NCBI RefSeq assembly: GCF_000306785.1
Contig: NC_017955.1
Coordinates: 1,674,001-1,738,000 of the forward strand
Direction: 5' to 3'
Length of the DNA: 64,000 bases
Source of the DNA: Modestobacter italicus
GTDB lineage: Bacteria; Actinomycetota; Actinomycetes; Mycobacteriales; Geodermatophilaceae
A program made the position numbers and the translations under genes. Below the pieces are notes generated by a model. The model was not told the DNA's origin and made no database searches. It saw only the letters and a list, made by a program, of their open reading frames with translations. This document shows positions 50,413 to 54,684 of this stretch, piece by piece (the stretch's first letter is position 1; each line of letters starts with the position of its first letter).

Positions 50413-51420
50413 TCACCGGACGACGACGGCGAACTCCTGCTCGGCGACGAACTCACCGATCACCGGCGCGCCGGGCACCTCCCCGCCGAGCAGCAGCCCG
50501 CCGGAGGTCTGCGCGTCGGCCAGCAGCAGCGCCTCGACCTCGTCGACCGCGGACAGGTCGGTGAACGGCGTGACCCAGGCCAGGTTCCGCCGGGTGCCAC
50601 CGGACACGTAGCCGTCGGTGACCGACTGCCGGGCGCCCGCCAGGTAGGGCACCGCAGCGGCCTCGACGACCGCGGTCACCCCGCTGGCCCGGGCCATCTT
50701 GTACAGGTGCCCGAGCAGGCCGAACCCGGTGACGTCGGTCCCGGCCCCCACGCCCGCGGCGACGGCGGCGACCGAGGCGGCCGCGTTCAGCCGGCTCATC
50801 GAGTCCACGGCCTCGGCCGACACCTCGCCGGTGGCCTTCATCCGGTTGTTCAGCGTGCCGACGCCGAGCGCCTTGGTCAGCGAGATCGGGGTCCCGGCGG
50901 TCGCCGCGTCGTTGCGGATCAGCCGCTCGGGGTCGACCAGCCCGGTGACGGCCATCCCGTAGGTGGGCTCCGGGGAGTCGATGGAGTGCCCACCGCCGAC
51001 GTGGCAGCCGGCGGACTGGGCCACCTCGAGCCCGCCGCGGAGCACCTCGGCGGCCAGCTCCATCGGCAGCACGTCGCGCGGCCAGCCGAGCAGGTTCACC
51101 GCCACGACCGGGGTGCCGCCCATGGCGTAGACGTCGGACAGCGCGTTCGCCGCGGCGATCCGGCCGAACGTGTACGCGTCGTCGACCACGGGGGTGAAGA
51201 AGTCGGTGGTGAGCACCAGCCCCTGACCGCCGGCCAGCCGCACCACGGCCGCGTCGTCCCCGTCGTCCAGCCCGACGACGAGCTCGGCCGCCGGGTCGGT
51301 CGGTCCGGTGTGGGTCAGGCCGGCCACGACGGCCTCCAGCTCACCGGGCGGGATCTTGCAGGCGCACCCGCCGCCGTGGGCGAACTGGGTGAGCCGGACG
51401 GGGGAGGCGAGGGCGGTCAC
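50413..51420 (-). CDS. selD: Selenide, water dikinase (selenophosphate synthetase)
   Basis: 335 residues. The active-site loop reads GGGCACKIPP with Cys19, Cys21 and Lys22; the first Cys stands where some relatives carry selenocysteine, so this SelD is a Cys form. LDDGDDAAVVRL holds the ATP/metal aspartates, TTDFFTPVVDDAYTFGRIAAANALSDVYAMGG the conserved core, and LLADAQTSGGLL the C-terminal signature. It makes selenophosphate for SelA. The GTG start 51420 follows -10-like TAGATT (plus 51427-51432) by six bases. It is divergent from selC-selA-selB. Confidence 0.97.
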   Translation of the reverse strand: MTALASPVRLTQFAHGGGCACKIPPGELEAVVAGLTHTGPTDPAAELVVGLDDGDDAAVVRLAGGQGLVLTTDFFTPVVDDAYTFGRIAAANALSDVYAMGGTPVVAVNLLGWPRDVLPMELAAEVLRGGLEVAQSAGCHVGGGHSIDSPEPTYGMAVTGLVDPERLIRNDAATAGTPISLTKALGVGTLNNRMKATGEVSAEAVDSMSRLNAAASVAAVAAGVGAGTDVTGFGLLGHLYKMARASGVTAVVEAAAVPYLAGARQSVTDGYVSGGTRRNLAWVTPFTDLSAVDEVEALLLADAQTSGGLLLGGEVPGAPVIGEFVAEQEFAVVVR

Positions 51421-51479: not shown

Positions 51480-51572
51480 GGAGGCGTCAGGGTGTCTGGT
51501 GGCCCCCGCGGCCTCTAAAGCCGACGTGACCGAGCACCTCGGTCAGGCGGGTTCGATTCCCGTCCGCCTCCG
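51480..51572 (+). tRNA. selC: tRNA-Sec with anticodon CTA (UAG-decoding)
   Basis: A 93-nt tRNA lying between selD and selA. Acceptor strands are GGAGGCG and CGCCTCC with G as discriminator; CCA is not encoded. The long variable arm pairs TGACCGA with TCGGTCA around GCACC, a tRNA-Sec hallmark. The T-arm is GCGGG-TTCGATT-CCCGT. The anticodon stem CGGC/GCCG encloses the 7-base loop CTCTAAA, in which the conserved T33 is followed by CTA, so the anticodon is CUA rather than the usual UCA. It would therefore read UAG. Such tRNA-Sec species are known from Geodermatophilus and Blastococcus. One mismatch (T with C) at the inner end of the acceptor is noted. Confidence 0.93.
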
Positions 51573-51622
51573 CTCCGGCCGGTGCGGGGCCCGCCCCTGG
51601 GGTCGGCTCCGCACCGGCGACC

Positions 51623-51637: not shown

Positions 51638-52948
51638 ATGACCGGAGACCCCCGCCGCTCGGTTCCGCGCACCGACGCCGTGCTGGCCGAGCCGCCGGTG
51701 GCCGCGGCGGTGGCACGGCTGGGCCGCGACCTGGTGAAGACCGCCGTGCAGGCCGCCCAGCAGCGGGTCCGGGACGGCGGGCTGGCCGCCGCCGACGTGG
51801 TGCCGGCGGTGCTGGCCGCGCTGCCCGGCACGGCGAGCAGCCTGCGCCCGGTGCTCAACGCCACCGGCGTGCTGGTGCACACCAACCTGGGCCGGGCGCC
51901 GCTGTCGGCCGCCGCCGTGGACGCGGTGGTCGCCGCCAGCGGCACCACCGACGTGGAGCTGGACCTGGGCACCGGACGCCGCGGCCTCCGCGGCGAGGGT
52001 GCGCTGACCGCGCTGCTGGACGCCGTTCCGGCGGCCGGGGCGGCCCTGGTGGTCAACAACTGCGCCGCCGCGCTGGCGCTGGTGGCCACCGCGCTGGGCG
52101 GGGAGCTGGTCATCGCGCGCGGCGAGCTGGTCGAGATCGGCGACGGGTTCCGGATCCCCGACCTGCTCGCCAGCACCGGCGCGCGGCTGCGCGAGGTGGG
52201 GACGACGAACCGGGTCTCCGTCGCCGACTACACCGACGCCCTCGGCCCGGACACCGGCGCGGTGCTCAAGGTGCACCCCTCGAACTTCGTCGTCCGCGGC
52301 TTCACCCGGGCCGCCGAGGTCGCCGAGCTCGCTCCGGCGCTGGCCGGGACGGGGGTGCCGCTGGTCGCCGACGTGGGCAGCGGCCTGCTCCGCCCGCACC
52401 CGCTGCTGCCCGACGAGCCGGACCTGCAGACCACCCTGGCCGCCGGCGCGGACCTGGCGCTGTGCAGCGGGGACAAGCTGCTCGGCGGGCCGCAGGCCGG
52501 GATCGTGCTGGGCCGGGCCGACCTGGTCCAGCGGCTCCGGCGGCACCCGCTGTACCGGGCGCTGCGGGTGGACAAGACGACCCTGGCCGCGCTCGAGGCG
52601 ACGCTGCGCGGGCCGCTGCCCCCGGTCCGGCGGATGCTCGACGCCGACCCGGCGGAGCTGCGGGCCCGGGCCGGGCAGGTCGCGGCCGCCCTGCAGGCGG
52701 CTGGCGTCCCGGCCACGGTGGTCGACTCGACCGCGCGGGTCGGTGGCGGTGGGGCGCCGGAGTTCGAGCTGCCCAGCGTCGCCGTGGCGCTCGACGTCCG
52801 CTTCGCCGAGCCGCTGCGGCTGGGGGCCCGGCCGGTGGTCGGGTACGTCGACGACGACCGGACGCTGCTCGACCTGCGCAGCCTCGCGCCCGCCGACGAC
52901 GCCGACCTGGTGCGCGCCGTCGAGGAGGTGGCCCGCCGGTGGACGTGA
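51638..52948 (+). CDS. selA: L-seryl-tRNA(Sec) selenium transferase (selenocysteine synthase)
   Basis: 436 residues. VLNATGVLVHTNLGRAPLS is the SelA signature; the PLP lysine is Lys280 in LALCSGDKLLGGPQAGIVLG. It converts Ser-tRNA(Sec) to Sec-tRNA(Sec) with selenophosphate. The enzyme recognises the tRNA body rather than the anticodon, so a CUA anticodon need not affect charging. The gene follows selC by 65 bases and overlaps selB by ten bases. Confidence 0.97.
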   Translation: MTGDPRRSVPRTDAVLAEPPVAAAVARLGRDLVKTAVQAAQQRVRDGGLAAADVVPAVLAALPGTASSLRPVLNATGVLVHTNLGRAPLSAAAVDAVVAASGTTDVELDLGTGRRGLRGEGALTALLDAVPAAGAALVVNNCAAALALVATALGGELVIARGELVEIGDGFRIPDLLASTGARLREVGTTNRVSVADYTDALGPDTGAVLKVHPSNFVVRGFTRAAEVAELAPALAGTGVPLVADVGSGLLRPHPLLPDEPDLQTTLAAGADLALCSGDKLLGGPQAGIVLGRADLVQRLRRHPLYRALRVDKTTLAALEATLRGPLPPVRRMLDADPAELRARAGQVAAALQAAGVPATVVDSTARVGGGGAPEFELPSVAVALDVRFAEPLRLGARPVVGYVDDDRTLLDLRSLAPADDADLVRAVEEVARRWT

Positions 52949-54684
52949 TCGCGACGGCGGGGCACGTCGACCACGGCAAGTCCGCGCTGGTGCGGGCGCT
53001 CACCGGGATGGAGCCCGACCGGTGGGAGGAGGAGCGCCGCCGCGGCCTCACCATCGACCTCGGGTTCGCCTGGACGACGCTGCCCTCGGGCCGACGGGTC
53101 GCCGTCGTCGACGTCCCCGGTCACGAGCGGTTCATCGGCAACATGCTGGCCGGCGTCGGCTCGGTGCCGACCGCGCTGGTCGTCGTCGCGGCCGACGACG
53201 GCTGGTCGGCGCAGACCGCCGAGCACGTCGCCGTGCTCGACGCCCTCGGCGTCCGGGCCGGGCTGCTCGCCGTGACCAAGGCCGACCTCGCCGACCCTGC
53301 CCCGGTGCTCGCCGACGCCCGGGAGCGGCTGGCCGGCACCTCGCTGGGGCGGCTGCCCGCCGTCGCGGTGAGCGCCCGGACGGGCGCCGGGCTGCCCGAG
53401 CTGACCGCGGCACTGGAGCGGGTGCTGGCCGGGCTGCCGGCACCCGACCCGGCCGCGCCGGTGCGGCTGTGGGTCGACAGGGCGTTCACGATCCGCGGCG
53501 CCGGGACCGTGGTCACCGGCACCCTCGCCGCCGGCACCCTGACGGCGGGGGACCGGCTGGACCTGGGCGGCCGGACCGTGACCGTCCGCGGGCTGCAGTC
53601 GCTCGGGGCGCCGGTGGAGACGGCGGTGGCCACCGCCCGGGTGGCGCTGAACCTGCGCGGCGTCGCGGTCGAGGAGATCTCCCGCGGCGACGCGCTGCTG
53701 ACCCCGGACGCGTTCCGCCGCACCGCCGACCTCGACGTCACCCTCGTCGCGCCGGTCGAGGGGACGCTGCCCGCCGAGGCGGTGGTGCACATCGGCTCGG
53801 CGACGGTGGCGGCCCGGGTGCGGCCGCTGGACGGGACGGCGGTGCGGCTCCGGCTGGCGCACGAGCTGCCGCTGCGGGTCGGCGACCGGCTGCTGCTGCG
53901 CGACCCGGGCGTGCGCCGGGTGCTGGGCGCGGACGTGCGGGACGTCGACCCGCCGGAGCTGCGCCGGCGGGGGGCGGCCCGGTCGCGGGCCGCCGAGCTC
54001 GCCGAGCAGCCCGCCGGCGCCGAGGGCGCGGCCGCCGACCTGGCCCGGCGCCGGTTCGTCCGGCGCGCCGACTTCGTGGCCATGGGCTGGCCGGTGCCCG
54101 CCGGGACGACGACGGTCGGGCCCTGGCTCGTCGCCCCGGGTCTCGCCGACGAGCTGGCGGCCCGGGTGCCGCAGGTGGTGGCCCGCTACCGGCAGCTGCG
54201 TCCGCTCGAGCCCGGTCCGCCGCTGGCGGTGCTGCGCTCGGCGCTGGAGCTGCCCGACGTCGAGCTGGTGCCCGCCGTCGTCCGGGCGCCGCTGGAGCTG
54301 CGCGAGGGGCGGGTGGTCGCCGCCGACCCCGGGCTGCCGGCGGCGGTGCAGCGCGCCGTGGACGGGATCCGGGCCCGCCTCGCCGCCGAGCCGTTCGCCG
54401 CGCCGGAGGCGGGTGACCTCGTCGCCGCCGGGCTCGGGACGCGCGAGCTGGCCGCCGCGGTGCGCGCGGAGCAGCTGGTGCGGATCGCCGACGGCGTCTA
54501 CCTGGCGCCCGGGGTGGCCGAGGTGGCGCGTGCCCGGCTGGCCGGGCTGCCCTCGCCGTTCACGCTGAGCGAGGCCCGGCAGGCGTGGGGGACCACCCGC
54601 CGGGTCGCCGTCCCGCTGGCCGAGTGGCTCGACGCGCGCGGCATCACCGTCCGGCTGCCGGACAACACCCGCCGGCTGCGCTGA
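52939..54684 (+). CDS. selB: Selenocysteine-specific elongation factor SelB
   Basis: 581 residues from GTG 52939 (GTG 52945 is an alternative). The EF-Tu-like G domain has AGHVDHGKSALVRALTG at 7-23, RRGLTIDLGFAWT, DVPGHERFIGNM and TKADLAD. Domains II and III run to about 370, and the C-terminal winged helices that bind the SECIS RNA fill about 380-581 (ending GVYLAPGVAEVARARLAGLPSPFTLSEARQAWGTTRRVAVPLAEWLDARGITVRLPDNTRRLR-type helix-wing). With the CUA tRNA-Sec it must deliver Sec at UAG near a SECIS element. The frame upstream of 52939 is not coding. Confidence 0.96.
   Translation: MDVIATAGHVDHGKSALVRALTGMEPDRWEEERRRGLTIDLGFAWTTLPSGRRVAVVDVPGHERFIGNMLAGVGSVPTALVVVAADDGWSAQTAEHVAVLDALGVRAGLLAVTKADLADPAPVLADARERLAGTSLGRLPAVAVSARTGAGLPELTAALERVLAGLPAPDPAAPVRLWVDRAFTIRGAGTVVTGTLAAGTLTAGDRLDLGGRTVTVRGLQSLGAPVETAVATARVALNLRGVAVEEISRGDALLTPDAFRRTADLDVTLVAPVEGTLPAEAVVHIGSATVAARVRPLDGTAVRLRLAHELPLRVGDRLLLRDPGVRRVLGADVRDVDPPELRRRGAARSRAAELAEQPAGAEGAAADLARRRFVRRADFVAMGWPVPAGTTTVGPWLVAPGLADELAARVPQVVARYRQLRPLEPGPPLAVLRSALELPDVELVPAVVRAPLELREGRVVAADPGLPAAVQRAVDGIRARLAAEPFAAPEAGDLVAAGLGTRELAAAVRAEQLVRIADGVYLAPGVAEVARARLAGLPSPFTLSEARQAWGTTRRVAVPLAEWLDARGITVRLPDNTRRLR

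Follow-up and report, generated by a model that had tools for sequence, protein, structure and literature searches.

The gene at positions 51480-51572 (+ strand) of the window, by which we mean the whole 64,000-nucleotide stretch of DNA analyzed here from the soil actinobacterium Modestobacter italicus (bases 1674001-1738000, on one contig of 5.58 Mb), most probably encodes the selenocysteine tRNA (tRNA-Sec) of this genome and would read UAG as selenocysteine (Sec). We assign the full explanation a probability of about 96%. The case for this strain is built from sequence: the tRNA itself, its neighbors, two target genes with an in-frame TAG, the hairpin that follows these codons, the TAG codons in formate dehydrogenase (FDH) genes of the family Geodermatophilaceae, and a tree of SelA proteins. 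UAG-encoded Sec in Geodermatophilaceae is already published, and the window is another case of it. What we add are counts over 112 genomes, an apparent single origin, a linked change in base pair 31:39 of the tRNA, genera of the family with TCA, and a lead in the sister species Geodermatophilus marinus, which appears to carry genes for both Sec codons and is the new point.

A tRNA-Sec gene with a CTA anticodon among the sel genes

The gene, selC, is identified as tRNA-Sec by covariance model. RF01852 (Rfam tRNA-Sec, gathering cut-off 47 bits) covers 51480-51571 at 65.8 bits and an E-value of 3.5e-11, from model position 1 to 91 and thus over its full length, and the base that follows the acceptor stem, the last of the gene, is the discriminator G (51572). 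In the model alignment the variable arm is long, and one non-standard pair is marked in the D stem. The 7-base anticodon loop, CTCTAAA, was read at 51513-51519 (+ strand), with the anticodon CTA (positions 34-36), which reads UAG, at 51515-51517. Aligned to the covariance model, the loop retains CTA and has no TCA; the usual, non-defining tRNA-Sec anticodon UCA is absent from this gene. The loop is closed by C31 (51512) and G39 (51520), a C-G pair compared to the U-A pair of the UCA tRNA-Sec genes read. The CTA anticodon is not a chance or sequencing oddity, because the identical anticodon arm is found in 102 tRNAs from 101 genomes of the family, which are all of the CTA tRNA-Sec genes read there.

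selC is located between selD and selA, with selB after selA. The selD gene (50413..51420, - strand) is an open reading frame for a selenide water dikinase of the Cys form (GGGCACK) that matches TIGR00476 at 377 bits. The selA gene (51638..52948, + strand), also an open reading frame, encodes the enzyme that converts Ser-tRNA-Sec to Sec-tRNA-Sec (TIGR00474, 413 bits), and selB (about 52939..54684, + strand) encodes the Sec-specific elongation factor (TIGR00475, 280 bits) with the SelB winged helix PF09107. The putative start codon of selB is a GTG, and the gene overlaps the end of selA. The initial annotation described a selenocysteine tRNA with a CUA anticodon inside an intact sel cluster, naming the loop, the long variable arm, the discriminator G and the position between selD and selA, and every one of these features is found in the window.

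ARAGORN places the gene at 51480-51573 with anticodon cta and labels it tRNA-Pyl, a label that would make UAG a pyrrolysine codon. The CUA anticodon is indeed common to tRNA-Pyl and the window tRNA. We nevertheless consider the probability of this reading to be close to nil. The variable arm of tRNA-Pyl consists of three nucleotides, according to the accessible part of PMC7609411, whereas that of the window tRNA is long and the gene scores well above the cut-off of RF01852. The window tRNA is also flanked by selD, selA and selB, and the in-frame TAGs occur at known Sec or Cys positions.

The route to Sec would follow established bacterial biology. SerRS would charge tRNA-Sec(CUA) with serine, and SelA, using selenophosphate from SelD, would turn the serine into Sec on the tRNA. 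SelB would then bring the Sec-tRNA to a ribosome halted at a UAG with the tip of a hairpin (SECIS) 18 nt further on, where the Sec-tRNA would compete with release factor 1. Sec would be expected to enter FDH and the UGSC protein in this way, while a UAG without the hairpin would still terminate translation. That SerRS would charge this tRNA with serine first is, together with the non-standard D-stem pair, what speaks for a plain amber suppressor derived from tRNA-Sec, on which SelA is inactive and which delivers serine at UAG. Such a suppressor is very unlikely, given that selA, selB and selD are retained beside selC, that SelA is found in 35 of the examined loci of genomes with a CTA tRNA-Sec, and that both targets belong to classic Sec enzymes and have a hairpin.

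UAG codons and hairpins in target genes

Two genes of the same genome combine an in-frame TAG at the Sec position with a SECIS-like hairpin after it, in agreement with the earlier proposal that UAG is the Sec codon of this organism. Searched for the molybdopterin oxidoreductase family, the genome has five matches, including two pieces of one gene, and one of the five contains one TAG. This is the FDH frame L064:5862-9221, which is 1119 residues long when TAG is read as Sec, has NQARI-U-HSSTVPGLG at the site and scores 1906 bits with the NCBIfam model NF041513. The UGSC family has three matches in the genome. One contains one TAG and reads VGD-U-GSC; the other two are free of stops and have TGC at the motif position, i.e. 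CGSC. An AhpC selenoprotein with TAG, as in Blastococcus saxobsidens, was not found, as none of the 11 AhpC-TSA matches has an internal stop. An in-frame TGA is absent from the matches of these three families, which cover less than the whole selenoproteome.

The same pattern extends across the family. The FDH search used a 272-residue query in which residue 141 is the Sec position, and resulted in 125 matches in 101 of the 112 genomes. Exactly one stop, a TAG, is found in 118 of them; these are all of the matches that span residue 141, and no other stop lies within the match. For 71 of the 118 we also read the codon at the Sec position, which is TAG without exception. The seven other matches (four in genome G164, one each in G225, G274 and G272) do not cover residue 141; six are stop-free and one of those in G164 has two TGA. 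At this cut-off no FDH is found in the nine genomes of the three TCA genera described below or in two others. In G164 (loci L393 and L394), both FDH copies lack the bases surrounding the Sec codon; their gaps differ and the frame is shifted, either through loss or through an assembly fault at a repeated hairpin. Across the family, 12 genomes have UGSC matches, 32 in total, of which 13 contain one TAG and 19 are free of stops. Reading the motif in 12 of the former showed TAG each time, and in 15 of the latter TGC each time. Of the matches left unread, three loci missed the motif filter and one had no locus. The genome of the window is a member of the Geodermatophilaceae with both a TAG FDH and a TAG UGSC protein.

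The 30 FDH sites first read all present GGTCT as the tip of a hairpin 18 nt after the TAG. At the UGSC sites the hairpin keeps this register, with another stem and the tip AGTNT. We aligned 20 sites, 13 from FDH and 7 from UGSC genes (17 distinct rows). The stem is paired in 90.4% of cells compared to 32-52% when slid by 1 to 3 columns, a percentage that is favored by picking the stem from these same sequences. The two outermost stem pairs are not formed in the UGSC rows. The covariation score of the stem is 0.427, against 0.04-0.12 for the slid versions and a mean of 0.193 for shuffled alignments, none of which (0 of 500) scores as high. Three of the five pair-count measures lie above all 500 shuffles. 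The other two show no excess: two pairs are changed on both sides, a number reached in 376 of 500 shuffles, and the number of further pair types is reached in 114 of 500. Taken at the level of sequence, a SECIS hairpin appears to follow the TAG in both the FDH and the UGSC genes.

These data also bear on the suggestion that these TAGs truly end translation and that the FDH and UGSC genes are pseudogenes, for which the two G164 copies, broken around the Sec site with different gaps, could be taken as support. This is hardly credible when all 118 spanning FDH matches have one TAG and no other stop inside the match, and when the covariation score of the hairpin exceeds all 500 shuffles and all slid versions.

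A SECIS model built from the 20 aligned sites was scanned over the genome for further UAG genes and gave 17 hits. The two strong hits are the FDH and UGSC sites, both of which belong to the training set, and the third has an E-value of 0.05. Among the 15 weaker hits nine were read, and one starts with TAG, without the conserved loop. The scan therefore yields no independent third UAG target; others may exist. TAG is still used at gene ends. By the counts of a crude gene picker, in which the genes are not independent, TAG terminates 32 of the 233 genes picked near sel loci with CTA, and within the genome of the window 5 of 30 genes in the window itself and 2 of 29 from stretches elsewhere. In the family's TCA loci it terminates 5 of 18 genes, and in the outgroup loci 9 of 30.

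The codon change across the family and beyond

A tRNA-Sec match at an E-value of 1e-10 or better is present in 108 of the 112 genomes of the family and absent at that level from four. The tRNAs of all 108 were read and comprise 110 genes, 102 with CTA (in 101 genomes) and eight with TCA. Seven of the TCA genes are the only tRNA-Sec gene of their genome, in genera here called g61, g62 and g63; the eighth accompanies a CTA gene in G. marinus. Genome G228 has two different CTA tRNA-Sec genes on contigs C25 and C168; this assembly is 88% complete in 320 contigs and is likely to be mixed. All 102 CTA tRNAs of the family have C-G as pair 31:39. Its eight TCA tRNAs have U-A there, as do 29 further TCA tRNAs from the order, the latter being the best-scoring loci and not a random sample. 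In every tRNA read, the change from UCA to CUA goes with a change of pair 31:39 from U-A to C-G, and this linkage can be tested in vivo.

The SelA tree includes 60 proteins: 34 from CTA loci, four from TCA loci of the family and 22 from TCA loci outside it. Six short rows of the 66 matching loci, one of them CTA, were left out. The CTA rows form one clade with a support of 100/100, and the only change of label lies among TCA rows. The root is by midpoint only, and several outside rows are on long branches. Because SelA of the 34 CTA loci forms a single, fully supported clade, one switch of codon, kept since, looks like the simplest reading. The few reported cases of UAG-encoded Sec would then become a family-wide codon change with one apparent origin and clean lineages before and after it. 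A practical consequence is that a search for in-frame TGA misses selenoprotein genes across most of Geodermatophilaceae.

Canonical UGA systems provide a view of the state before the change. The sel clusters on the Arthrobacter plasmid pYA7-1a and on a Tsukamurella plasmid resemble that of the window in comprising selA, selB, selD and tRNA-Sec, and in having a homologous FDH with a like SECIS hairpin. They differ in that the anticodon is UCA (TCA in the gene), pair 31:39 is U-A, and the FDHs adjoining the tRNA have TGA at the same site. These two are the only FDH sites among 40 scanned loci of TCA tRNA-Sec carriers. Compared to the plasmid FDHs, the lineage of the window seems to have exchanged TGA for TAG and kept the surrounding signal. 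Loci L245 (NZ_CP110115.1) and L246 (NZ_LR134459.1) are actinobacterial plasmids with selA, selB, selD, tRNA-Sec and FDH, and one of them is typed as conjugative. Mukai and colleagues (2016) are said to have confirmed UAG-encoded Sec by 75Se labelling or mass spectrometry.

The text that could be consulted of PMC5330540, which cites Mukai et al. 2016, describes three Geodermatophilaceae genomes with a CUA tRNA-Sec and FDH and UGSC selenoproteins, with an AhpC selenoprotein additionally in B. saxobsidens. As far as that text goes, the systems of Geodermatophilus and Blastococcus share with the window the CUA anticodon, the family, and TAG in FDH and UGSC genes, and we found no difference in the window. 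The initial annotation was thus right to present the locus as an example of a reported recoding and not as a new principle. That UAG serves for Sec in some species is also stated in the accessible passages of PMC10778597 and PMC8124441, and in E. coli, with a SECIS, tRNA-Sec(CUA) and UAG made TrxR1 about as well as UCA and UGA, according to the portion of PMC3834832 at hand.

Outside the family, an exact pattern of the CTA loop with a T arm at the tRNA-Sec distance, which misses variant loops or T arms, matches two of 396 sampled genomes of the phylum. One of the two is the genome of the window itself and the other match is a stretch without an ARAGORN tRNA. Viral contigs contain 55 stretches that match the CTA-loop pattern (L338-L392), with many long-arm tRNA-like genes. 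ARAGORN reports a cta tRNA at many of these stretches; by eye none resembles the tRNA-Sec of the family, and we rejected them as such. They are probably amber suppressors of phages.

Candidate genes for a second Sec codon in Geodermatophilus marinus

The genome with both anticodons (G085) is that of Geodermatophilus sp. LHW52908, which the part of PMC12453565 (2024) open to us lists as type strain of Geodermatophilus marinus. On its contig C11, selD, selA and selB accompany a CTA tRNA-Sec, and the genome has a TAG FDH. Contig C17 (NZ_QVQH01000024.1, 69,133 bases) also has a TCA tRNA-Sec of 81.8 bits, which lies between two transposase genes (L036:3-515 and L036:6089-6865). The G+C content of C17 is 0.64 in the first 5 kb and 0.70-0.79 in the rest. 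About 315 bases from this tRNA, a reading frame stays open only when a single TGA is taken as Sec (L036:1173-2157 holds both the tRNA and the frame). It corresponds to an AhpD-like CFY-U protein (TIGR01926, 112.6 bits with a cut-off of 81.8), and the AhpD-like family is listed among known CxxU selenoproteins in the consulted section of PMC13188914. selA, selB and selD have no match on C17. SelA, SelB and SelD are all present in the genome, with one full-length SelB, the second-best match sharing 36% identity across 257 residues.

The AhpD-like gene was collected at 67 loci from named genomes, by title mostly Acidobacteriota, and also Planctomycetota, Gemmatimonadota and others. The Sec position is TGA in 63 of them (G. 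marinus included), TGC in one, and uncovered in three. Of the 67 loci, 58 contain CACGCAGAGTTTCTGCG, which follows the TGA where its place is visible in the loci read. The stretch after the UGA of G. marinus folds with no unusual energy (z -0.09), so the case for a hairpin there is made from its conservation in relatives and not from energy. Within Geodermatophilaceae, a TGA-type AhpD-like gene is found only in G. marinus at an E-value of 1e-20, and five weaker matches elsewhere in the family have TGC. No linkage of the gene to a tRNA-Sec is seen in the remaining 66 loci, whose flanks extend no more than 6 kb on each side.

We lean towards the view that G. marinus took up a mobile cassette with its own UCA tRNA-Sec and a UGA-type AhpD-like gene, and reads both UAG and UGA as Sec via one SelB. 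The tRNA would have had to travel with the gene because the host tRNA-Sec no longer reads UGA. More broadly, a change of the Sec codon throughout a lineage would keep out foreign selenoprotein genes unless they arrive on a cassette with a tRNA of its own. The CUA tRNA-Sec of G. marinus may read the UGA of the island too, as a synthetic Sec tRNA with CUA also read UGA in the excerpted results of PMC11116698. The island may also be a false join or contamination, considering that it lies at a contig end among IS elements; against this, about 2.1 kb within bases 37001-40000 of C17 matches two other genomes from its genus at 83-84%. If the cassette is real, G. marinus would be a natural cell with two Sec codons and would offer a direct test of whether a codon change limits gene transfer. 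In the literature covered, in which subscription journals are thinly represented, we recognized no report of one organism that uses both UAG and UGA for Sec. At L036:2916-5320, the island also contains frames of 526 and 275 amino acids beside a JAB-domain protein; neither frame matches a family in Pfam or NCBIfam or any other AhpD locus.
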